In this document: positions 9,111 to 22,132 of the stretch, piece after piece
Layout of the letters: each line of letters opens with the position of its first letter
How positions within the stretch are numbered: position 1 is the stretch's first letter
Source: Nitrospira sp.
GTDB lineage: Bacteria; Nitrospirota; Nitrospiria; Nitrospirales; Nitrospiraceae
Direction of reading: 5' to 3'
Length of the DNA: 64,000 nucleotides
Assembly: GCA_030653545.1 (NCBI GenBank)
Contig: JAURZE010000009.1
Coordinates: 1-64,000 of the forward strand
Position numbers and translations under genes: made by a program
The notes under the pieces: generated by a model
Database searches by the model: none
The model's input: only the letters and a program-made list of their open reading frames with translations
What the model was told of the DNA's origin: nothing

Positions 9111-9182
9111 CGCCATGACACCGTTCATAACAACGACACATTATTGGAGCCCAGCTGCGCCTCTCACGCACCTGGCCCCCGC

Positions 9183-9226
9183 GCTCGTCCCTTCCTGCCA
9201 GGAGAAGGGACGAGCCCCGGGTTTTT
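9183..9226 (+). terminator. rho-independent terminator of the DksA-like gene
   Basis: A 12-bp perfect stem (9183-9194 with 9204-9215, core CTCGTCCCTTC/GAAGGGACGAG) with a 9-nt loop is followed by a run of five T at 9222-9226. It separates the DksA-like gene from the deacetylase gene. Confidence 0.8.
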
Positions 9227-9251
9227 GCTGCCGCCTCGGAAGGCATCGATC

Positions 9252-10178
9252 ATGATTGCAGATCGACCGCCTCGGCACGCCCTGACCATCGACCTGGAAG
9301 AGCACTTCCAGGCGCCCCGCTTCGACTCGCCGATGCGCCGCCGCTGCTGGTCCAACTTTGATAGTCGTGCGCGAAAGAATACCGAGCATCTGCTGAATGT
9401 GCTGGCGCGCCGCTCCACCACGGCGACGTTCTTCGTGCTCGGATGGCTTGCCGAACGCCATCCGTCGCTTATCCGCACTATCGCCGCTTCCGGCCACGAG
9501 ATCGCATGTCTCGGCTATGCCCACGAACAGGTCGCGGCACAGACGCCGGAGCAGTTCCGACAGGATATCCAGCGCGCCAAGCATCTCCTGGAGGATATGA
9601 TCGGGCAATCCGTCCGGGGCTTCCGGGCCCCCGCTTTCAGCATCACGGCAGATACCTTGTGGGCACTCGCGATTGTCGCGGACTGCGGCTTCGTCTACGA
9701 CAGCAGCGTGCTTCCGGTCGGATTCACTTCCAACAGACTGTACAGCGAAAACCGATTGCAGCGTCTCCAGGCCGGAACCCGTTCCATCTGGGAAGTCTCG
9801 CCATCGACATCGAATATGTTGGGATTTCTCGTGCCGATCGGAGGGGGAGGCTACCTCCGAACATTGAACTATCCGGTCCTGCGCACGTTGTTCTCACAGA
9901 TCGAGAACCTCGGCAAATCGATCGTGATGTACATAAGAGTTTGGGAATTGGACTATGAGCAACCACGCATGGTGGGGCCACTCCTCGCCGAATCCCGCCA
10001 CTACTGGAATCTCCACAAGATGGAGCCGCGACTGACTCAGTTATTGACCGATTTCTCCTTCGGGTCCGTCCGTGAAGCAATCCAGCCCGTCCGGACGCTC
10101 GCAGATTGCCCCGAACCATCGGATGACTCGGAATCTGCAATCCACAACGACGAAACACTATCTACCGCCGTGCAATAA
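9252..10178 (+). CDS. polysaccharide deacetylase family protein (DUF3473/XrtA type), active site altered
   Basis: Homologous to deacetylases that accompany exosortase-type EPS loci. Family features include an N-terminal ALTIDLEEHFQ, TTATFFVLGWLAERHP, the RGFRAPAFSIT segment and GGGGYLR. Two metal-site positions differ from the family: the second Asp of motif 1 is Glu (DLEE, residues 14-17), and the first His of the SHGYAH motif is Leu87 (CLGYAH), leaving only His91. Catalysis may be weakened or lost. The start is ATG at 9252. A zinc-ribbon gene follows with its ribosome site touching this stop codon. The main EPS locus is about 30 kb away. Confidence 0.82.
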   Translation: MIADRPPRHALTIDLEEHFQAPRFDSPMRRRCWSNFDSRARKNTEHLLNVLARRSTTATFFVLGWLAERHPSLIRTIAASGHEIACLGYAHEQVAAQTPEQFRQDIQRAKHLLEDMIGQSVRGFRAPAFSITADTLWALAIVADCGFVYDSSVLPVGFTSNRLYSENRLQRLQAGTRSIWEVSPSTSNMLGFLVPIGGGGYLRTLNYPVLRTLFSQIENLGKSIVMYIRVWELDYEQPRMVGPLLAESRHYWNLHKMEPRLTQLLTDFSFGSVREAIQPVRTLADCPEPSDDSESAIHNDETLSTAVQ

Positions 10179-10719: not shown

Positions 10720-12729
10720 CTAGCTGCCGATCTTGCCGCCGTCGTCCTTGGTGATCACGATACAGGCCGAGCGGGGCCGGCCGCCGGCAGGACCGTCCGG
10801 CCAGGAGCTGAACTGCTTCGGATTCGCCGGATCCCCGGGCAAATCATCGGGCCGCTCGCCCGGATGCTGGATGCCGACGAACATCGTTCGACGATCCGGC
10901 GTCATAAAGACACCCGTGACTTCGCACTGATTCGGCCCGACCAGGAACCGCCGGGTCTCCCTGGTGTCCGGATCCGCAGCCACCATCACATTGTTGCCGA
11001 ATCCGGCATAGGCACCCGCATTGATCGTCGAGGTCGACACATCGGTCTGAATCCAGAGCAGGCCGCTGGGATCCACATAAATCCCGTCCGGCGATCCATA
11101 CTTGTCGCCGAAGATCGTGGAACCGTGAGCAGGATTCGCCGGATCGCCGCAGAGCGCGAAGATGTCCCAGCCAAACGTGGGCTCCGTCCAATCCTGGCGA
11201 TAATGCCAGCGGATGATGTGGCCGTAGTTATTGATCGCCCGAGGATTAGCCGCATCCACCGGCGGACGGGCTGAGCCCGCAGCCGCAGACCCGTCCGGAT
11301 TGTTGACCGACGGCGGAGTCGAACCCCGGCGACTATTGTTCGTCAACGTGGCAATCGCCGTTAAGGATCGAGGGAACGTGTCGATCCATTCAGGACGGTC
11401 CATCATCGTCGCGCCGGCCGCATCCGCAGCCCCGCGCGTATTGATGAGAATATCGTTCAACGACCACCCCCCGAGACGCGGATTGTCCGGAGTCAGCGGC
11501 AGCCATTCCCCGGTCCCGTCCGCATGAAACTTCGCGACATAGAGGATGCCATCATCGAGCGGGTTGATGCCTTGCCGGCGCGCCTGGCGCCAAGGCAGGT
11601 TCGACACAAAGCGATAGATGTATTCGTTTCGCTCATCGTCCCCCATATAGACCACGACACGGCCGTTCCTGGCCTCCTGCACCCACGCGCCCTCATGCTT
11701 CAAACGTCCAAGTGCGGTGCGCTTGACCGGAGTTGAGTTCGGCCGAAATGGATCGATCTCCACCACCCAGCCGAAGCGATTCGGCTCGTTCGGTTCCTCA
11801 TCTGTCCGGAACCGCTTGTCGGTGGTGTGCCAGAGATACCCGAAGCCCGCAGCGGTAATCCCGTAGCGCTTTTCGAGTGGGGTCTGCGGGCCGTTCTTCC
11901 GAAAGTACCCGTTGAAGTTTTCTTCGCAAGCGAGATACGTGCCCCATGGTGTATAGCCCATCGCACAATTGTTGAGCGTTCCCAACACGCGCTTCCCGGT
12001 CGGATCCTCGCTGGTGATCAATCGAGCATCGCCTGCCGCCGGGCCTCCGATTTCGATTGGAGTCAGGCCGGTGATGCGCCGCCCGAAGGGAGAAGGGCGG
12101 ACGACATCCCATTTGCCCCGCCGGCGCCGCCAGTCCCATGGGAAGCCGGTCCGCTTCGTCACTTCGATGATCGACACGCCGTGTGCATTCAATGACTTTT
12201 TGGTTTTCTCGGGGGTCCAGTTATTCACGCCGTCCGGGAACAAGAGTCCGTCATCGGTATATTCATTATTCTGCACGATGATCCCGCGCTGGGACCCGAC
12301 GATCGGAAAATAGACCATGCCATCGTTGTGCATACCCCACTGGCGCGCCTGTTCATCGGCTGAATTGCTTCCATCCTGCTTGAATGCGGGGCCATGGGAG
12401 ACGGGATCGCCCCAGGCAATCAACACTTCCGCCGAATACCCTTTAGGCACCACAACGGTATCCGCAGATGACACCGGCACACTTTCGAACCCGAGCACGG
12501 GCCGTCGTCGCCCACCATCCTCATCGGCTTGTCCAGCCTCTTCGGCCCCTTCGTCTGCGGAAGCAGGCACGGCCTTCAACAGCGCCTCGACGCCGCCGAG
12601 CGACACCGCCGCCACAGTCGCAATACCGCCAGTTATAAATCCCCGACGGGACAAGCGTGCGTCCAGGACATCTTGAAAATGTTCGTTGCTTGATTGATTG
12701 CTACCCCCCTCGTCATCGATGATCGACAT
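10720..12729 (-). CDS. phoX: PhoX-family alkaline phosphatase (DUF839)
   Basis: A periplasmic phosphatase that releases phosphate from organic esters; family members use Ca and Fe cofactors. The 669-residue protein starts at 12729 with ribosome site AAGGAGTG. A twin-arginine signal (LSRRGFITGG, residues about 27-36) precedes a hydrophobic stretch, as in Tat-exported PhoX. The DUF839 region follows with LACEENFNGYF, FGWVVEIDPF, LKHEGAW and the late block SPDGIYVDPSGLLWIQTD. A small gene and a repeat array of Pho-box type lie upstream on the same strand, fitting induction by phosphate starvation. A hairpin follows its end. Confidence 0.92.
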   Translation of the reverse strand: MSIIDDEGGSNQSSNEHFQDVLDARLSRRGFITGGIATVAAVSLGGVEALLKAVPASADEGAEEAGQADEDGGRRRPVLGFESVPVSSADTVVVPKGYSAEVLIAWGDPVSHGPAFKQDGSNSADEQARQWGMHNDGMVYFPIVGSQRGIIVQNNEYTDDGLLFPDGVNNWTPEKTKKSLNAHGVSIIEVTKRTGFPWDWRRRRGKWDVVRPSPFGRRITGLTPIEIGGPAAGDARLITSEDPTGKRVLGTLNNCAMGYTPWGTYLACEENFNGYFRKNGPQTPLEKRYGITAAGFGYLWHTTDKRFRTDEEPNEPNRFGWVVEIDPFRPNSTPVKRTALGRLKHEGAWVQEARNGRVVVYMGDDERNEYIYRFVSNLPWRQARRQGINPLDDGILYVAKFHADGTGEWLPLTPDNPRLGGWSLNDILINTRGAADAAGATMMDRPEWIDTFPRSLTAIATLTNNSRRGSTPPSVNNPDGSAAAGSARPPVDAANPRAINNYGHIIRWHYRQDWTEPTFGWDIFALCGDPANPAHGSTIFGDKYGSPDGIYVDPSGLLWIQTDVSTSTINAGAYAGFGNNVMVAADPDTRETRRFLVGPNQCEVTGVFMTPDRRTMFVGIQHPGERPDDLPGDPANPKQFSSWPDGPAGGRPRSACIVITKDDGGKIGS

Positions 12730-12796
12730 GAGGATCACTCCTTGTTCGTGAAGGTGAATGAGTGTGCAGAACCGACCGGGCCCCCTTGAAGCCGCC

Positions 12797-12961
12797 TTAT
12801 GCTCGAGAGACCGCCAACAACCACTTCTTGATTCGCACCACGATTGTCTCATGATGGAGTCGTCTCACTGCCCCGGACGAAGCCAGCAGCAGTGAACGCC
12901 CCATTGTGATTGTTGCTGTGGATGACTGACCGAATACTCCTCTCCCCACCGGCTGTTTCAT
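12797..12961 (-). CDS. small hypothetical protein upstream of phoX
   Basis: A 54-residue frame starting MKQPVGRGVFGQ with a strong ribosome site (GGAGGGAGTT before the ATG at 12961). It is Ser/Thr- and Arg-rich with a short hydrophobic segment in the middle (ITMGRSLLLASSGAV) and ends KKWLLAVSRA. It lies between the Pho-box-like repeats at 13121-13149 and phoX, on the same strand. I do not recognise it. It could be a leader peptide or simply part of a long leader. Confidence 0.4.
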   Translation of the reverse strand: MKQPVGRGVFGQSSTATITMGRSLLLASSGAVRRLHHETIVVRIKKWLLAVSRA

Positions 12962-13275: not shown

Positions 13276-14010
13276 TTAACGAGCGACAGCTCCGGCCATC
13301 TCCTTCAGCATCCGTTCCGCTTCCGGCTTGTAGGTCCGCTCCCAGGCGAAGCGATAGTGGGGATGGTCGGCGCGAATGACAGTCTCCAGTTGCCGTTTCG
13401 CGTCGTCAATGCGATCCTGCTTCTTGTAGAGCTTTGCGACGAGAATGCGAGCGTTCGTAAAATTCCCGTCGGCGGCGATCGCCCGTTCGAGATACTCCTG
13501 GGCTTTTTTCTCATCTCCCCCGAGAAACCAGGGAAGCTCCATCAGCAGTCCGCCCATCATCTGAAGCGCTTGAGCATGGTTGGGATTGAGTTCGATCGCC
13601 CGCATCGCACAGTACTTGATTTCTTTCACGACCATCGCGGCATTGGCGATCCCCCGAAGCCGCTCGGCGCTACCGAGATTAGCAGCGTGAAAGAAATGGG
13701 CGTCCGCATTGGAGTCATCCAGTTGAAACGCTTGTTCTGCGGCTTTCGCGCCGGCTTCGAAGGCTGTCCGGCGCTTTTTCTCGTCCGTCAGCAAATCATC
13801 GGCGAGATCGAAGTAAGTCGAGGCCAGTTGAACGAGCAGCCCAGGTGACGCATCGCCTTCGTTCAACCGAGCGAGCAACGATGATAAATCCCCCTCCAGC
13901 GACTGCGGATACCCGGCCGGCATTTCGTCGCGCTGAGCGAGCGCCTGCCCGGTTCCTATGAGAGTGGCGAGTACTATACAGCCAACACCGATCCATGTAG
14001 CGCGATTCAT
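13276..14010 (-). CDS. exported TPR-repeat protein
   Basis: A 244-residue protein with a signal peptide (MNRATWIGVGCIVLATLI, cleavage after ALAQ) and several tetratricopeptide-like helical pairs (for example YFDLADDLLTDEKKRRTAFE and AKAAEQAFQLDDSNADAHF). This suggests a periplasmic protein-protein interaction scaffold. Conserved residues place it near RMDN/regulator-of-microtubule-type TPR families, but no function can be named. The start at 14010 overlaps the stop of the upstream hydrolase gene by 4 bp (ATGA), so the two are translationally coupled. Confidence 0.78.
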   Translation of the reverse strand: MNRATWIGVGCIVLATLIGTGQALAQRDEMPAGYPQSLEGDLSSLLARLNEGDASPGLLVQLASTYFDLADDLLTDEKKRRTAFEAGAKAAEQAFQLDDSNADAHFFHAANLGSAERLRGIANAAMVVKEIKYCAMRAIELNPNHAQALQMMGGLLMELPWFLGGDEKKAQEYLERAIAADGNFTNARILVAKLYKKQDRIDDAKRQLETVIRADHPHYRFAWERTYKPEAERMLKEMAGAVAR

Positions 14011-14711
14011 TCTTCCTCTTTCTCGACCATGAACTCCGTAATGGCGGAAACCGCCGCTGTCGGATTCGTGTAGAGCGCGAAGTGCTGACCATCTATCATC
14101 CGAACTTGAACGGATGGTTGCACGCATGCGATCTCTTTAACATTGGAATGGGGCACGATCCCGTCGTCGCTGCCGGCGAGGCAGAGCACAGGAACTGGAC
14201 AATTCTTCAAACGCTCTCGTGCGTCCATCTGTAACAGCGACCTGATCCGGGCCGCCACCATGGACGCCTTCACGCGCTTCCAGGTTTCTGTCTTGTCCCG
14301 CCTGAGCCGGTCACTCGAACTTCGAGAGAGCCAGACCGGAAGCCGCTTACCAAATCGAAGCATCCACACCGTCGGCGTCACGGCAGCCCATCCCAGCCGC
14401 GCGTAAATCGGTCGCGGCGGGCGCACAAACGTGGACGCCAGAATCACACCCCGCACCTTGGCCGGCTCAGCCGCGGCAAGCATGAGCGCCAGCGGCCCTG
14501 AGAATGACCAGCCCAATACATAACATGTGGTCGTTTCCGCCAGGGCGCACTGAGCCAGCCTCAGCAAATCGGGATACTCATTCGCTCCGGCGGTCGGGAA
14601 CTGCACGATCATCGGCGTGATCCACCCCGGCAATGCCGCCAGCAATGGCCGAAAGAACACATCCGTACCGTCGAGACCAGGTAGAAGCACCAAGGTGATC
14701 GGATTCAACAT
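14007..14711 (-). CDS. alpha/beta-hydrolase
   Basis: A 234-residue alpha/beta-fold hydrolase with a Ser nucleophile in GWSFSG, Asp in AGSDDGIVP and His in DGQHFALYTNP, so the catalytic triad looks complete. The oxyanion region is LLPGLDGTD. Esterase, lipase or thioesterase activity is possible; the substrate is unknown. No signal peptide is seen. The start is ATG at 14711 (alternative 14732; neither has a good ribosome site). It is coupled to the TPR gene downstream. A perfect Pho-box-like pair lies 95 bp upstream, so a role in lipid turnover during phosphate limitation is a reasonable guess. Confidence 0.8.
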   Translation of the reverse strand: MLNPITLVLLPGLDGTDVFFRPLLAALPGWITPMIVQFPTAGANEYPDLLRLAQCALAETTTCYVLGWSFSGPLALMLAAAEPAKVRGVILASTFVRPPRPIYARLGWAAVTPTVWMLRFGKRLPVWLSRSSSDRLRRDKTETWKRVKASMVAARIRSLLQMDARERLKNCPVPVLCLAGSDDGIVPHSNVKEIACVQPSVQVRMIDGQHFALYTNPTAAVSAITEFMVEKEEE

Positions 14712-14805
14712 ATCGGAGGATGTCAACCTCATTGGTGATGGCCAGCCTACGCCGACAGCTGAATTCTGGGGCGATCACGGACCGAGGTCAACAGTTAGAA
14801 CCGCA

Positions 14806-14834: not shown

Positions 14835-15084
14835 CAGCGTTCTCTCGCAGTTTGGGAACCGAAGCCCGCCACACCTTGTTCTGTCACGCACAGCCTGGTG
14901 ACGTGTTTTGTCCATTCCGTACGTTGCGCGGCCATTTGTTATGAAACCGTTTCAGCCGTAATCGTTTTCACATGGACAATTCACTGAACTCCACCGGTAG
15001 TCCTAACCAAGCTGAAACAAGGCTGTTATAGCCTTCTTCTCATGATGTCCCTTCGAATATCACCATCAGCGGGAGGTGACGCGG

Positions 15085-15942
15085 GTGCATAAACCACTTG
15101 GAGCTCGCTCTCTGTCGTACCGCACCGTCTGGATTTCCGATGTCCACTTAGGTTTTCGTGGATGCCGCGCCGATCACTTGCTGAACTTCCTCCATTCCGT
15201 CGACTGCGAGTATCTCTATCTGGTCGGCGACATCATCGACATCTGGGAAATGAGGAAGCGGATCTTCTGGCCGCAATCGCACAACAACGTCGTGCGAACG
15301 ATCCTGGGCAAGGCCAAACACGGCGTCAATGTCATCTATGTGCCCGGCAATCACGACGAACTCCTGCGGGATTTTCACGATATGACGTTCGGCAACGTGC
15401 AGATCCTGGAGGAAGCCATTCACACAAATGCCGATGGACGGCGTCTCCTGGTCACTCACGGAGACAAGTTCGACAGCGTAGTCCGGTGCTCCCGGGCGAT
15501 GGCGATGCTGGGCACCCGCCTCTACGACTGGCTGCTCAAAGCCAACTACGTGGTGCACGGCGTCCGGAGGAAACTCGACCTGCCCTACTGGTCGCTGGCG
15601 GGATTCCTCAAGCACAAAGTCAAGAACGCGGTGCAATTTATCAGCAACTTCGAAGCGGCCGTGGCCTATGAAACGGCCAGGCTCGGCGTCGACGGCGTCG
15701 TCTGCGGCCATATTCACCGGCCGGAAATCACCAAGTTGAACGACGTGATCTACTGCAACTGCGGCGATTGGGTGGAGAGCTGCAGCGCGCTCGTGGAGCA
15801 CCACGACGGCAGCCTGGAACTGTTGCGATGGGCGGACACGATGGCCAGTCTTAAACATTCCCACAAAGGAGACCGGGAACGCACCAGCTTGTTTCCAGAT
15901 GAGGAACTCGTTGTCGCGAAAGACCGAAGGTATGTGGCATAG
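15085..15942 (+). CDS. LpxH-like calcineurin-type metallophosphoesterase
   Basis: Related to UDP-2,3-diacylglucosamine diphosphatase but probably acting on another phospho-lipid or nucleotide-lipid. All metal-site motifs are present: WISDVHLG, GDIIDIW, GNHDE, THGDKFD and GHIHRP. The length (285 residues) is longer than E. coli LpxH (about 240). The start is the GTG at 15085, 8 bp after GGGAGG; an upstream GTG at 15076 overlaps that ribosome site. It is first in an operon with the aminotransferase-Mpo1 fusion (39-bp gap) and the PEMT-like gene. The operon follows a Pho-box-like site, which points to lipid remodelling. Confidence 0.85.
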   Translation: MHKPLGARSLSYRTVWISDVHLGFRGCRADHLLNFLHSVDCEYLYLVGDIIDIWEMRKRIFWPQSHNNVVRTILGKAKHGVNVIYVPGNHDELLRDFHDMTFGNVQILEEAIHTNADGRRLLVTHGDKFDSVVRCSRAMAMLGTRLYDWLLKANYVVHGVRRKLDLPYWSLAGFLKHKVKNAVQFISNFEAAVAYETARLGVDGVVCGHIHRPEITKLNDVIYCNCGDWVESCSALVEHHDGSLELLRWADTMASLKHSHKGDRERTSLFPDEELVVAKDRRYVA

Positions 15943-15981
15943 GGAAACCTGCGCGTAAACCTGGAGGAAGAGGAGGATTGT

Positions 15982-18294
15982 ATGTTCGACGAGACACTGC
16001 AACGATGGGGCGCCTGCGCGGATCTGCGCACAATCACCGCCTGCCGTCCCGGATGGGACGATGCCGGTTCCATCATCGCGCTCAGCCTCGCCGTCGGCAT
16101 CGCGATCGCTATCCTCGTGCGGGTGACCGGGGTACTGATGAACCTTCGGGCCCGTTCGTTCACGCCGCTGTTCTCCCGCTGGCTCTCTCGATGGGTCAAG
16201 ACCAACGATTATACCGGTGTAGACTTTTTCCGGGCCGACGGCGCGGATGATGCCACCGTCATCACACGCCAGCGGGCATTCGATCGCCTTGCGGCCTATT
16301 TTCAAGAGCACCATGCGCAGTCGATTGCCTGGGGCAACGCCATCCGGGACGGCCTCTCTGATCTGCGATTCACGGATGCCGGGCGCGTGCCCTTTCCCTT
16401 CGCCCGGGTCATGCGGGAGAAATTCAATCTCTGCTCAGTGGTGACCGCCTCTGCAGGACCGGAGCTGCGCGATCTTGACGGGCAGTGGTCGCTGGACGTG
16501 ACGGGCTCCTACGGGGTCAACGTCGCGGGATACGATCGCTATAAGGAATGGATGGAGAAGGGCTGTGAGCGCGTGAAAGATCTCGGTCCGGTTCTCGGAC
16601 CGCTTCACCCGATCGTTGCCGACAATATCGCGATGCTTAAATCGATCTCGAAACTGGATGAAGTGTCCTTCCATATGAGCGGCACTGAGGCAGTGATGGC
16701 CGCCATCCGGCTGGCACGCTTCAATACCCGCCGAGACAAGATTGTCTGCTTTGCCGGCGCCTATCACGGCTGGTGGGACGGTGTGCAACCAGGTCTCGGC
16801 AGCGAGCGGGAGATCAAGGACTGCATCACGTTGAAGGACGTCAACCCGGCGTCGCTTGATGCCATCCGCCGGATGAAGCGCGATATCGCGGGCGTCGTCG
16901 TCAACCCGATCCAATCGTTCCACCCCAATTCGCCGCCCCCGAGCGACGCCATCTTATTGACGAGCGACATCCGGAAAATTCAGGACGCCCATGCACCCTA
17001 CGCCAAGTGGCTCCGGCAGCTCCGCGACGTCTGCACCGCCTGCGACATCCCGCTGATCTTCGATGAAGTGTACTCGGGCTTCCGCCTGGCCCCGGGAGGC
17101 GCGCAGGAATACTTCGGCGTCCAGGCCGATCTGGTCGTCTACGGCAAGACCGTGGGCGGCGGGATGCCGGTCGGAGTCTGCTGCGGCAAGAAAGAGTTGA
17201 TGCGCCGCTTCGATCCTGACCACCCCATGCGTCTTGCCTATGTGATCGGCACGTTCTCGGCCCACCCGCCCGTGATGGGGGCGATGTACGAGTTCCTGCG
17301 CTGGGTGATCGCGCCGCAGGCCGTGCAACAGTACGACGAGGCGAACCGCCGCTGCACCGAATGGGCGGCCTCGATCAACAAGGATTTTGCGGAACGCGCG
17401 CTGCCGCTCCGTCTGGTCAACCTCGCGACGGTCTGGACCATCCTGTTCCAACAGCCGGGGCGGTACAACTGGCTGCTGCAATATTACTTGCGCGCGGAAG
17501 GCGTGACATTGAGCTGGGTCGGCACAGGCCGTTGCTTGAGCAACATGGCGTTTACCCAGGACCACTACGACGAGCTGCAGGCCGCCTTGATCGCGGCGGC
17601 TTCACGGATGAAGGTCGACGGCTGGTGGCTGGAAGGGCTCGATCAACCCGAACGGAGGAAGGCGATGAAATCTCGCTTGATATGGGAAATGCTCGGCAGC
17701 ATTGTCCAGGTTCCGAAACCACTGCGCACGTTTTACACCGAGGTCATGCGGCGCAAACACGACGATCACGTGGCGTCGCACAGCCATCCGCTGAATCAGC
17801 TGTTTCATCTCCTGAGTTCGAGCGTGTTCATCTACTGCTACGTCCTGATCTTCACAGATCTCACAACCGCCGTCACGGCCAGCCTCGCGGCGCTCTTCGT
17901 CCGCCAGTTCGGCCATGCGATCGTCGAACCGCCCTGCCACGATAAGGAAGAACTGCTCCTCGGATTCAACACGCCGAACAAGACCCTGATCGTCTCAGCC
18001 TACTGCCTGATCCCGCTGGCCAACATGCTCTCAGCCGGCAGCGTAACCTGGACGGCCTTCGTCGAGAAATGGCCGACCATCGCGCAGCAATGGTGGGGGC
18101 TCACGCTGGTGGTCGTCCTGGGCCGCGTGGCCTACCTGGCCTGGCTGCATGACTTCCGGATTTCCATGATCTGGTTCGTGAAGCTCGTGACCGATCCCTT
18201 CACGGACATCAAGGCCTATGCGCCGAAGTCTGGCAGCGACTGGCGGGCGTTCCTGCCGCCCTATTCGACCGGCGAGATGAGCCACAAGCACTGA
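15982..18294 (+). CDS. membrane-anchored class III aminotransferase fused to an Mpo1-like (DUF962) domain
   Basis: A 770-residue multidomain protein. Residues about 27-53 form a membrane segment. Residues about 110-545 form a PLP-dependent class III aminotransferase fold close to glutamate-1-semialdehyde aminomutase, with FHMSGTEAVMAA, FDEVYSGFR and the Schiff-base Lys389 in VVYGKTVGGGMPVG. Residues about 590-745 form a multi-helix membrane domain with HSHPLNQLFH and RQFGHAIVEPP, matching the His-rich signature of Mpo1/YGL010w (DUF962), a fatty-acid alpha-oxidation enzyme in yeast. A haem-pathway role is unlikely given the membrane domains. Its stop overlaps the start of a PEMT-like methyltransferase. 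I infer amination of a lipid aldehyde or ketone; the substrate is unknown. Confidence 0.82.
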   Translation: MFDETLQRWGACADLRTITACRPGWDDAGSIIALSLAVGIAIAILVRVTGVLMNLRARSFTPLFSRWLSRWVKTNDYTGVDFFRADGADDATVITRQRAFDRLAAYFQEHHAQSIAWGNAIRDGLSDLRFTDAGRVPFPFARVMREKFNLCSVVTASAGPELRDLDGQWSLDVTGSYGVNVAGYDRYKEWMEKGCERVKDLGPVLGPLHPIVADNIAMLKSISKLDEVSFHMSGTEAVMAAIRLARFNTRRDKIVCFAGAYHGWWDGVQPGLGSEREIKDCITLKDVNPASLDAIRRMKRDIAGVVVNPIQSFHPNSPPPSDAILLTSDIRKIQDAHAPYAKWLRQLRDVCTACDIPLIFDEVYSGFRLAPGGAQEYFGVQADLVVYGKTVGGGMPVGVCCGKKELMRRFDPDHPMRLAYVIGTFSAHPPVMGAMYEFLRWVIAPQAVQQYDEANRRCTEWAASINKDFAERALPLRLVNLATVWTILFQQPGRYNWLLQYYLRAEGVTLSWVGTGRCLSNMAFTQDHYDELQAALIAAASRMKVDGWWLEGLDQPERRKAMKSRLIWEMLGSIVQVPKPLRTFYTEVMRRKHDDHVASHSHPLNQLFHLLSSSVFIYCYVLIFTDLTTAVTASLAALFVRQFGHAIVEPPCHDKEELLLGFNTPNKTLIVSAYCLIPLANMLSAGSVTWTAFVEKWPTIAQQWWGLTLVVVLGRVAYLAWLHDFRISMIWFVKLVTDPFTDIKAYAPKSGSDWRAFLPPYSTGEMSHKH

Positions 18295-18830
18295 TGACGC
18301 TCTGGAGTGTGCTGATCGCGGCCGGCGCCCTGAGTCTCGAACGAGTCTGGTACGCGTGGGTCTGGCACCATCCGGACTCGTTTCGCCGGTTCTGCTCCAA
18401 ACCGCTCCTCGCCGCCTTCGGTGAACCGGTGGATGTCTTGCGAAGCTGTTTCGTCTGTTTCAAAATGCTGCAGCTCGCTGTGTTCTTCGGCTGGTGTTAT
18501 CTCCATGGTGACGGCACCGTCCTCCCGCCCGGCGATGACGGACCCTGGATCGCCGCGGGTGGAGTGCTGATCGCCATCGGCCAAGTCCTCAACTTCGGCG
18601 TGTTCATGCAACTGGGCAAGATCGGCGTCTTCTACGGAAACAGACTGGGGTATCACGTCCCCTGGTGCCGGAGCTTTCCCTTCTCCCTCATGCCCCATCC
18701 GCAATATGTCGGCGCAATCCTGTCGATCTGGGGCTTCTTCATGACGACCAGATTTCCCTATGACGATTGGTTCATCCTCCCCCTGCTACAAACGGCACAA
18801 TACGCGGCGGGAGCGTATCTCGAGCAATGA
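18294..18830 (+). CDS. PEMT/ICMT-like membrane methyltransferase
   Basis: A 178-residue integral membrane protein with about four helices and the C-terminal signature of phospholipid N-methyltransferases (FPFSLMPHPQYVGAILSIWG, then a final Glu near the end). Members transfer methyl groups from SAM to amino-lipids or carboxyls at the membrane. The ATG overlaps the stop of the aminotransferase-Mpo1 gene (TGATG), so the two are co-translated and probably act on the same lipid, plausibly methylating the amine made by the upstream enzyme. That pathway is inference. The gene is the last in the operon. Confidence 0.8.
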   Translation: MTLWSVLIAAGALSLERVWYAWVWHHPDSFRRFCSKPLLAAFGEPVDVLRSCFVCFKMLQLAVFFGWCYLHGDGTVLPPGDDGPWIAAGGVLIAIGQVLNFGVFMQLGKIGVFYGNRLGYHVPWCRSFPFSLMPHPQYVGAILSIWGFFMTTRFPYDDWFILPLLQTAQYAAGAYLEQ

Positions 18831-19016: not shown

Positions 19017-20507
19017 ATGGACATGCTCTTCGGTGAGTCGTTAAGCGTCCAGACGGCGCTATTTTTATTGCTGGCGCTTGCCCTTGCGCTCAGCTTCGAG
19101 TTTGTCAACGGGTTTCACGACACCGCCAATGCGGTGGCGACGGTCATTTACACCAATGCGCTCGAGCCTAACACCGCGGTCGTCTGGTCCGGCTGTTGGA
19201 ACCTGATCGGCGTCCTCAGCTCCAGCGGCGCGGTGGCGTTCGGCATCATTGCGCTATTGCCGGTGGAACTGGTGATCAATGTCGGCTCGGGCGCCGGCTT
19301 CGCGATGGTCTTCGCGCTGCTGATCTCCGCTATCGTGTGGAACCTGGGAACCTGGTACCTCGGCCTGCCTGCGTCGAGTTCCCATACGCTGATCGGCTCG
19401 ATCATGGGAGTGGGCCTGGCGAACTCCCTCTTCTCAGCGAACCACGCTTTCGGCGACGGAGTGAATTGGGCCAAGGCCAAGGATGTGGGATTGTCGCTTC
19501 TCGTGTCGCCGGTCGTCGGATTTTGCGCAGCGGCGCTGCTTTTATTGCTGGCCAAAGCACTGCTCAGAAAACCTGCGCTGTACAGCGCGCCGGATCCTGG
19601 CAAGCCCCCCCCGCTATGGATCCGGAGTATCTTGATCCTGACATGCACCGGCGTTAGTTTCGCCCACGGGTCCAATGACGGGCAAAAAGGCATGGGCCTG
19701 ATCATGCTCATTCTCATCGGCATTCTGCCGGGCGCGTATGCCCTGAACTTAGAAACGAGTACGGCGGCAATTGCGCATCTACAGATCTCTGCCCGCACGA
19801 CGGACGACATCCTCAAGTCCTACGCCGGCGCGACGGCCTTGAAACCCGAAGATGCAGGCGAGGAGCTGTCCAATTTTTTGAGCAGCGCCGGCACAACCAG
19901 CGAAAGAACGTATGCCGCCCTGCAGCAGAAGAACGGATATATTGCGGAGCAGCTGAATGGGAAGCGCAGCCTCCGTGAGCTGAGCCGCAATGAGCGCAGC
20001 GAGTTCCGAACGGTGGTATATCTCGTGGGAAAGTCGCTCGACAAACTGCACACAGAGAACACGTTCACCGTTCCAAGCGAAAGAAACCACCTGACGACGT
20101 ACCGGGCGGACCTGGACAACGTCACCCGGGTCCTTCCTGATTTTGTCAAATACGCCACTGCCCTGGCGCTTGGCTTAGGGACGATGATCGGCTGGAAACG
20201 GATTGTCGTGACGGTGGGCGAAAAGATCGGCAAAGCCCATCTCACCTATGCGCAAGGCGCGGCGGCGGAACTGGTTGCCATGTCCACGATCGGAGCGGCT
20301 GATTATTGGGGCCTCCCCGTGAGCACTACGCACGTGCTCTCATCCGGTGTGGCCGGAACGATGGCGGCCAATCGCTCCGGCCTCCAAATGGACACGCTGA
20401 AAAACCTCTTGCTGGCCTGGGTGCTGACGCTTCCCGTATGCGTGCTGCTGGGCGCCACCTTCTTCGCCGCAGGGCTCTATGTCGTGGCCCATTGGCTGGG
20501 GCTGTGA
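19017..20507 (+). CDS. pit: Pit-family inorganic phosphate transporter
   Basis: A low-affinity, ion-coupled phosphate permease of the inner membrane, 496 residues, the size of PitA. The duplicated PHO-4 signature is present: FEFVNGFHDTANAVAT near residues 28-43 and FAHGSNDGQKGMGL in the second half. A soluble loop of about 120 residues (with SRNERSEFRTVVYLVGKS) separates the two membrane halves, as in PitA. The start ATG follows AGGACC. A four-unit Pho-box-like array precedes the gene. Confidence 0.94.
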   Translation: MDMLFGESLSVQTALFLLLALALALSFEFVNGFHDTANAVATVIYTNALEPNTAVVWSGCWNLIGVLSSSGAVAFGIIALLPVELVINVGSGAGFAMVFALLISAIVWNLGTWYLGLPASSSHTLIGSIMGVGLANSLFSANHAFGDGVNWAKAKDVGLSLLVSPVVGFCAAALLLLLAKALLRKPALYSAPDPGKPPPLWIRSILILTCTGVSFAHGSNDGQKGMGLIMLILIGILPGAYALNLETSTAAIAHLQISARTTDDILKSYAGATALKPEDAGEELSNFLSSAGTTSERTYAALQQKNGYIAEQLNGKRSLRELSRNERSEFRTVVYLVGKSLDKLHTENTFTVPSERNHLTTYRADLDNVTRVLPDFVKYATALALGLGTMIGWKRIVVTVGEKIGKAHLTYAQGAAAELVAMSTIGAADYWGLPVSTTHVLSSGVAGTMAANRSGLQMDTLKNLLLAWVLTLPVCVLLGATFFAAGLYVVAHWLGL

Positions 20508-21109: not shown

Positions 21110-22132
21110 TTAGCGCATGCTCCCCCACCGGCTCTCTTCAAACGGCTCCAGCAAGGACGCGAAGCGTTCCGTCCAATTGCGCCAGGAATGCTGTCTGGCA
21201 TAGGCGATGCAATCAGCCGGGTCGAGCTTCAGCGCGCCGAGGATGGCCTTGCGAAGATCGTGATCCAACACGCCGGTTTTCCCGTTCTGCACCACATCGA
21301 TCGGGCCGGTGACGGGAAACGCCGCAACCGGCACACCGCAGGCCATGGCTTCGAGCAACACAAGCCCGAACGTGTCGGTCAGGCTCGGAAACACGAAGAC
21401 ATCCGCCGCCGCGATGTGCGCCGTCAGCTCCTGCCCCGTCTTCTGTCCGGTAAATGTCACGTTCGGATAGCGCCGCCGAAGCTGTTCCAGATCAGGGCCA
21501 TCCCCCACCACATACTTCGAGCCGGGCAGATCGAGATCCAAGAACGCTTCGATGTTTTTCTCGACGGCAACGCGGCCCATGTACATGGAGATGGGCCGTT
21601 CCCCTGACAAGAATGATTTTAGCCCAGGCTGGAACAGATTCGAATCCACGCCCCTCGCCCAGATTTCCAGATTCTTGAATCCTCGGTCTTCCAGCATGCG
21701 CCGCATCGATGGCGTGGCGATCATCGTGCGGGTCGCGCGGCTGTGATACCGGCGCAGATAGGCGTACGACCAGGAGAGGGGAAGGGGAAAGCGGGCACGG
21801 ACATATTCAGGAAACTGCGTGTGATAGGACGTCGTAAAGGGCAGCGAGAGACTGCGACAGAACGCATGCGCCGCATGGCCGATAGGGCCTTCCGTCGCGA
21901 TGTGAATCGCCTGCGGGCGAAACTCCCGGAGCATCCGCCTGACGCCACGTTTCGGAAATACCGCGAGCCTGATAGAGGGATACGTCGGGCAGGGATAGGT
22001 ACGAAAATCCTGCGGCGTGATCACTCGCACCTCATGCCCCAGCTCTCTCAAATGCGTGACGGTGTGCCCGAGCGTGCGGACGACCCCGTTGATCTGCGGC
22101 TGCCAGGCATCGGTCGCGATTGCGATTTTCAT
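21110..22132 (-). CDS. GT4 glycosyltransferase, glycolipid-synthase type
   Basis: A 340-residue GT-B fold enzyme with N-terminal MKIAIATDAWQPQINGVVRTL, acceptor-side TTSYHTQFPEYVRARFP, and the C-terminal donor motif (DTFGLVLLEAMACGVPV). These features match the SqdX/MgtA-like group that puts sugar on diacylglycerol or related lipids, often to replace phospholipids at low phosphate. The precise sugar cannot be told. The start at 22132 is chosen from homology; the frame runs open upstream through the Pho-box-like region. The site TGTAACGCAATCTTAACG lies 137 bp upstream. Confidence 0.85.
   Translation of the reverse strand: MKIAIATDAWQPQINGVVRTLGHTVTHLRELGHEVRVITPQDFRTYPCPTYPSIRLAVFPKRGVRRMLREFRPQAIHIATEGPIGHAAHAFCRSLSLPFTTSYHTQFPEYVRARFPLPLSWSYAYLRRYHSRATRTMIATPSMRRMLEDRGFKNLEIWARGVDSNLFQPGLKSFLSGERPISMYMGRVAVEKNIEAFLDLDLPGSKYVVGDGPDLEQLRRRYPNVTFTGQKTGQELTAHIAAADVFVFPSLTDTFGLVLLEAMACGVPVAAFPVTGPIDVVQNGKTGVLDHDLRKAILGALKLDPADCIAYARQHSWRNWTERFASLLEPFEESRWGSMR

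Follow-up and report, generated by a model that had tools for sequence, protein, structure and literature searches.

The 64,000-nucleotide stretch of Nitrospira sp. contig JAURZE010000009.1 analysed here (the window, from a genome of 3.94 Mb) carries at positions 15085-18830, on the + strand, three tightly packed genes. They encode a metallophosphoesterase (gene 1), a 770-aa fusion of a class III aminotransferase with an Mpo1-like membrane domain (gene 2), and a PEMT-type methyltransferase (gene 3). We propose, giving it about an even chance of being right, that these genes belong to a phosphate-starvation lipid-remodelling module producing a nitrogen-containing, phosphorus-free head-group lipid through candidate chemistry suggested by the gene set. 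The proposal follows from the PlcP or PHP phosphoesterases of the module, its GT4, PhoX, PiT and PstS neighbours, the Pho boxes of related loci and the missing BtaA. A first-pass annotation of the window, made from the letters alone, had already tied the genes to phosphate stress, and the same evidence supports that link. The spacing it gave, a 39-bp gap followed by a 1-bp TGATG overlap, was re-derived from the open reading frames (ORFs).

The PlcP-like phosphoesterase

The product of gene 1 matches the calcineurin-like metallophosphoesterase families Metallophos_2/Metallophos of Pfam. Its earlier label, LpxH-like, was not borne out: the LpxH models, whose cut-offs are 190 and 134 bits, scored only 47.7 and 50.6, which rules out that identity. 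The best named homologues belong to organisms that have the PlcP pathway, although all are annotated as UDP-2,3-diacylglucosamine diphosphatase; they come from S. meliloti (46% identity, not confirmed as the characterised PlcP), P. aeruginosa plasmids (51.6%) and Thiodictyon (59.5%, on a plasmid, where the gene adjoins a glycosyltransferase gene). Proven PlcPs are 46-47% identical to each other (PMC8528852). Since gene 1 lies within this range of identity and misses the LpxH cut-offs, its sequence indicates a PlcP-like protein, a predicted phospholipase C, rather than LpxH.

PlcP and Agt form a phosphorus-stress lipid-remodelling pair (PMC4796936, PMC8528852). The linkage of plcP to a glycosyltransferase gene is present in the window, where a GT4 gene lies downstream (Table 1), and likewise in most relatives. 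Within the genus Nitrospira, PlcP tracks the fusion: 6 of the 8 genomes with the fusion encode it, against 0 of the 51 without (p = 6e-7). In the two fusion-positive exceptions a contig edge truncates the fusion gene. Some Nitrospira also carry a short second plcP piece just upstream of the full gene (L005:414-581, L096:2472-2639), likely a remnant of duplication.

The aminotransferase and its Mpo1-like partner

Aminotran_3 matches the gene 2 protein with E = 3.4e-30 and 105.5 bits (cut-off 30.5), and the pyridoxal phosphate (PLP) lysine, named as Lys389 in the first-pass annotation, was confirmed. In the AlphaFold2 model of the protein (pLDDT 84), the single N-terminal hydrophobic helix is part of a long helix that probably anchors the aminotransferase in the membrane. 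The aminotransferase domain is nearest to the beta-aminating domain of MycA, both by sequence (173 bits) and by fold (Foldseek E = 1.8e-27), followed by the glutamate-1-semialdehyde (GSA) aminomutases.

The C-terminal domain is modelled confidently as a multi-helix structure (pLDDT 89), and its family shares the invariant motifs DDHxxxHxxxxNxxxH and RQxGHxxxEPxxxDxE. The window domain itself reaches 18.9 bits against PF06127 (Pfam cut-off 24). PF06127 was matched by 30 of 39 family members, certain of them above the cut-off (e.g., 26.4 bits), and no other Pfam family was matched. A profile comparison with canonical Mpo1 members aligned H-x8-H and GH-x3-E, the spacings of its conserved candidate metal ligands (hhalign E = 3e-5, probability 73). 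The earlier assignment to DUF962/Mpo1 is thus correct through the family and weak for the window protein taken alone; judged by these alignments, the domain is a distant Mpo1 relative, probably iron-dependent. PF06127 gave no match across 99 Nitrospirota genomes, the window's genome included. The fold of the domain had no Foldseek match at E <= 0.001 and all VIA Z scores were below 5, from which we claim no new fold.

Two module types across genomes

A scan for relatives found 297, of which 80 loci were kept; 27 are of a fused type, with aminotransferase and Mpo1-like domain in one protein, and 53 of a separate type, with two genes. The separate count includes a Nitrospira locus (L031) whose C-terminus lies beyond the contig end. 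The search for the same fusion and neighbours elsewhere, proposed with the first-pass annotation, returned a recurrent module. Its gene set is above chance, being conserved at 54-83% identity in Nitrospira, Binatota and other lineages. The module spans seven phyla or more, among them Nitrospirota, Binatota, Myxococcota, Acidobacteriota, Planctomycetota, Verrucomicrobiota and Pseudomonadota. One of its carriers is N. moscoviensis, a nitrite oxidiser in culture, and others are Marinobacter, Paraglaciecola and Halovibrio isolates. Three loci from metagenome-assembled genomes (MAGs) titled Bordetella parapertussis or Klebsiella pneumoniae (L017, L019, L024) cluster with uncultured proteobacteria in the trees, and these titles look wrong.

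The fused type is that of Nitrospira and Binatota and comes with a PEMT or PmtA-like methyltransferase; among its 27 loci PlcP was present in 18, a methyltransferase in 16, GT4 in 23 and a second phosphatidylserine decarboxylase (PSD) paralogue, PSD2, in none. The separate type is found in most Gammaproteobacteria, Planctomycetota and Acidobacteriota and consists of the aminotransferase, the Mpo1-like gene and the long PSD paralogue, with PSD2 at 44/53 and the Mpo1-like partner at 45/53 loci (most of the remaining loci lie on truncated contigs). GT4 lies near 38 of the 53 separate loci as well and in both types often adjoins the aminotransferase. A recurrent membrane protein of about 265 aa with no Pfam match also occurs near the separate-type module (L047:6955-7779, L062:13720-14508 and four more loci).

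The Mpo1-like partner was detected in 13 of 13 aminotransferase-positive genomes tested, also where the two are unlinked, and in 0 of 15 negative Nitrospira (p = 3e-8). In Acanthopleuribacter the unlinked partner adjoins PSD2. Trees of both parts divide into the fused and separate types (branch 100/100 for the C-terminal domain, 93/89 for the aminotransferase). Given this co-occurrence and the same split in both trees, aminotransferase and Mpo1-like domain behave as obligate partners; the simplest history behind the two types is one fusion or fission event.

A phosphoesterase usually accompanies the pair, and it is either PlcP or the PHP part of a PHP-GT4 fusion protein. Clusters of the Marinobacter, Colwellia and planctomycete types have the fusion protein, and none of the loci combines PHP with PlcP. 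PlcP was absent from 15 of 16 PHP-positive genomes and present elsewhere in 11 of 16 other genomes (p = 6e-4; some of these genome-wide PlcP matches are 36-39% identical and may be paralogues). The PHP call is based on invariant HxH, H, E, H, H and DxH residues and one sub-threshold PHP_C match; a phmmer search of the domain against the PDB returned nothing. The PHP-GT4 proteins, of about 900 aa (L065:9638-12352, with similar ones in L033-L083), keep all metal residues, and their N-terminal half has no Pfam name.

Methyltransferases and the decarboxylase paralogue

The PEMT-type methyltransferase reported earlier for gene 3 was recovered at 42 bits against a PEMT (PF04191) cut-off of 25. Two unrelated methyltransferase folds recur in the module, PEMT and a PmtA-like class I enzyme. 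PSD2 of the relatives scored 174.1 and 151.5 bits against the TIGR00163 cut-off of 111.75. It retains the GST self-cleavage site and the YHRxH motif, with altered neighbouring residues (WNVNP for FSVN). At least two PSDs were present in 17 of 17 separate-type genomes tested; fused-type genomes have one, and one MAG has none. PSD2 and a methyltransferase occur together at some loci (L036, L049, L058 and L089). The last of these lies on a Sphingomonas parapaucimobilis plasmid (NZ_CP155753.1) and holds PSD2, the aminotransferase, the Mpo1-like gene and a PmtA-like methyltransferase gene, which shows that plasmids can carry the module.

Association with phosphate

The surroundings of the operon in the window are phosphate-related, with PhoX, PiT and GT4 genes (Table 1). 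PhoX is also close to three related loci (L015, L019, L021), and PstS genes adjoin the Nitrospira and Binatia loci. Both the separate-type aminotransferase gene (p = 4e-5) and plcP (p = 3e-4) have higher Pho-box scores in their upstream regions than control genes, often near -62; the controls are mechanical ORFs and related loci are non-independent, which makes these p-values optimistic. By consensus, the window held 2 Pho-box matches against 3.8 expected. None of the neighbouring response regulators reached the PhoB cut-off (best 264.7 vs 296.2 bits). BtaA (PF11899) is absent from the window's genome and from 24 of 27 carrier genomes.

Proposed function and its rivals

Gene content, the obligate pairing, the exchange of PSD2 for methyltransferase between types, the exchange of PlcP for PHP and the Pho association are established from the genomes. 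On this basis we suggest the following route. PlcP, as in its well-studied family, would cut membrane phospholipids to diacylglycerol and free the phosphate-bearing head groups, and the nearby GT4 would glycosylate part of the diacylglycerol. The membrane-anchored aminotransferase and its Mpo1-like partner may then act on a lipid head group, oxidising and aminating it by what would be an undescribed chemistry, to give a phosphorus-free amino-lipid. This would be N-methylated by PEMT, or by the PmtA-like enzyme in some relatives; in the separate type the dedicated PSD paralogue would decarboxylate it, instead of or besides N-methylation. The outcome would parallel, without phosphorus, the route from phosphatidylserine (PS) through phosphatidylethanolamine (PE) to phosphatidylcholine (PC). 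The chemistry is placed on the head group mainly because two unrelated N-methyltransferase folds recur, as does a PSD paralogue that retains its catalytic motifs and has changed flanks. N-methylation, as the first-pass annotation had it, is supported and probably comes late in the route, and a phosphorus-free, nitrogen-containing lipid akin to its amino- or betaine-like product is the most economical outcome. Its suggestion that a long-chain aldehyde or ketone is aminated found no support; the PSD paralogue and PmtA/PEMT of relatives suggest head-group chemistry instead. The complete pathway, in which an amino(-acid) head group on diacylglycerol is made by the PLP aminotransferase and Mpo1-like oxygenase and then decarboxylated and/or N-methylated, we put forward tentatively, as possible rather than probable.

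Several observations weigh against this route. The weakest point is the making or attachment of the new head group, which no module enzyme obviously joins to diacylglycerol. A methyltransferase lies nearby at only 16 of the 27 fused loci, the Nitrospira type lacks PSD2, and PSD2 could use ordinary PS and PEMT ordinary PE. The Mpo1 homology is distant, and the nearest solved aminotransferase domain, that of MycA, has acyl chains rather than head groups as its substrates. The Pho-box-like site noted earlier upstream of the operon is not above chance in the window (Table 1).

The main rival, which we consider unlikely, places the chemistry on a glycolipid sugar: the Mpo1-like domain would oxidise a hydroxyl of a glycosyl-diacylglycerol to a carbonyl, the aminotransferase would aminate this position and the methyltransferase N-methylate it, and the product would be an amino-sugar glycolipid, either cationic or zwitterionic. 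GT4 is frequent at the loci, the PHP-GT4 fusion stands between aminotransferase and PSD2 in Marinobacter-type operons, and sugar C-6' aminotransferases (7lld) belong to class III. However, this scheme leaves the PSD paralogue unexplained, no GT4 lies within 8 kb at several loci, and GT4 may just make the usual monoglycosyl- or glucuronosyl-diacylglycerol (MGDG/GADG) of the same regulon. Oxidation of a hydroxy- or keto-fatty acyl chain by the Mpo1-like domain, with the aminotransferase yielding an amino-fatty acyl lipid or fatty amine, would suit the beta-amino fatty acyl product of the MycA domain, the nearest PDB relative, as well as the action of yeast Mpo1 on 2-hydroxy fatty acids (the PF06127 family name agrees). 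We regard it as improbable, since identity to MycA is about 27%, no acyl carrier protein (ACP) or polyketide synthase (PKS) genes were found among the window neighbours, and PlcP, PSD2 and PEMT/PmtA indicate head groups.

A similarly small chance is given to a PS/PE/PC supply locus under phosphate control, with the aminotransferase pair in a side role such as catabolising the head groups released by PlcP. PSD2 does pass the archaetidylserine/PS decarboxylase cut-off, PEMT is a genuine PEMT-family protein, and the class III family includes ethanolamine-phosphate phospho-lyase; yet the most constant core is the aminotransferase-Mpo1 pair, which has membrane segments, while PSD2 and the methyltransferase are variable, and extra phospholipid synthesis would be counter-productive under phosphate stress. 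There is next to no chance that gene 2 encodes a GSA aminomutase making 5-aminolevulinate and accidentally fused to a membrane protein. HemL models are the best NCBIfam matches of the aminotransferase, but it scores 165.5 bits against a TIGR00713 cut-off of 527.3, and this identity was rejected; a true HemL is encoded elsewhere in the genome (G000:C6, 636.7 bits), and the linked genes are lipid genes. Synthesis of 5-aminolevulinate, which the first-pass annotation had set against its own lipid reading, is thereby disfavoured.

Relation to known systems

The phosphorus-free head-group module proposed here resembles the PlcP-Agt system of S. meliloti, marine bacteria and Pseudomonas aeruginosa in its PlcP-type phosphoesterase, GT4 and Pho association, but the known variants have glycosyltransferases or btaBA, with no aminotransferase or decarboxylase mentioned (PMC4796936, PMC8528852). 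BtaA/BtaB make a diacylglycerol-derived, N-methylated, phosphorus-free lipid (diacylglyceryl-trimethylhomoserine, DGTS) of the kind proposed as product; the module instead has a PLP enzyme and an Mpo1-like domain. With the MycA domain (6kfm) and GSA aminomutase the aminotransferase shares the class III fold and PLP lysine motif, but it is membrane anchored, outside an ACP/PKS context and below the HemL cut-off. The Mpo1-like domain has the H-x8-H and GH-x3-E motifs and multi-helix membrane nature of PF06127 (yeast 2-hydroxy-palmitic acid dioxygenase), and differs in an extra C-terminal half and invariant DDH, DKE and KxxTDPFxDI motifs. The accessory genes belong to the same enzyme families as the PSD and PEMT/PmtA route to PE and PC, except that PSD2 is a second paralogue altered near its catalytic motifs.

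No paper describing the gene set or the aminotransferase-Mpo1 fusion was found in the part of the open-access literature that was searched, and the pathway is apparently undescribed, as the first-pass annotation had held. PlcP-Agt has been described before; what appears to be new is the aminotransferase-Mpo1 core and its accessories, PSD2 or a methyltransferase. Bacteria in phosphate-poor water and soil spare phosphorus through lipid changes, and the enzymes for several phosphorus-free lipids are unassigned. The module could explain nitrogen-containing lipids in organisms that lack BtaA, which would, if the proposal is true, have a pathway of their own for making betaine- or choline-like membrane lipids. 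It could also give a function to an unstudied class III aminotransferase and Mpo1-like oxygenase, and it is defined sharply enough for testing.

Features of the locus

Table 1. Positions in the window of the operon genes, their domains and neighbouring features.
Feature	Position	Strand	Remarks
PhoX alkaline phosphatase gene	10720..12852	-	phosphate context
Alpha/beta hydrolase gene, divergent from plcP	14007..14732	-	possible accessory
Weak Pho-box-like site CTGAAACAAGGCTGTTAT	15012..15029	+	position weight matrix (PWM) 11.1, within-locus p 0.115
plcP-like metallophosphoesterase gene	15085..15942	+	two in-frame GTG start candidates, 15085 and the alternative 15076
Aminotransferase/Mpo1-like fusion protein gene, 770 aa	15982..18294	+	
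N-terminal hydrophobic helix (probable membrane anchor), residues 28-46	16063..16119	+	hydropathy; model helix 25-57
Class III aminotransferase domain, residues 149-535	16426..17586	+	PLP Lys389 codon 17146-17148
C-terminal membrane domain, divergent Mpo1-like (DDHxxxHxxxxNQxxH ... RQxGHxxxEPxxxDKE)	17707..18291	+	
PEMT-type phospholipid N-methyltransferase gene	18294..18830	+	
PiT/PHO4 phosphate transporter gene	19017..20507	+	phosphate context
GT4 glycosyltransferase gene	21110..22132	-	probable start at Met, ORF residue 93

A search for a sigma-70 promoter or terminator at the operon gave nothing that exceeded shuffled sequences. In related Nitrospira GT4 is the next module gene, and the window GT4 is a candidate diacylglycerol-glycosyltransferase. 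The alpha/beta hydrolase gene divergent from plcP is also present at five other Nitrospira module loci; its product may serve this pathway as a lipase or acyl hydrolase. Further upstream, positions 9144-10178 (+) encode a polysaccharide deacetylase of the XrtA/PEP-CTERM system (288 bits, above its cut-off), from which an exosortase system in the window's genome is likely.

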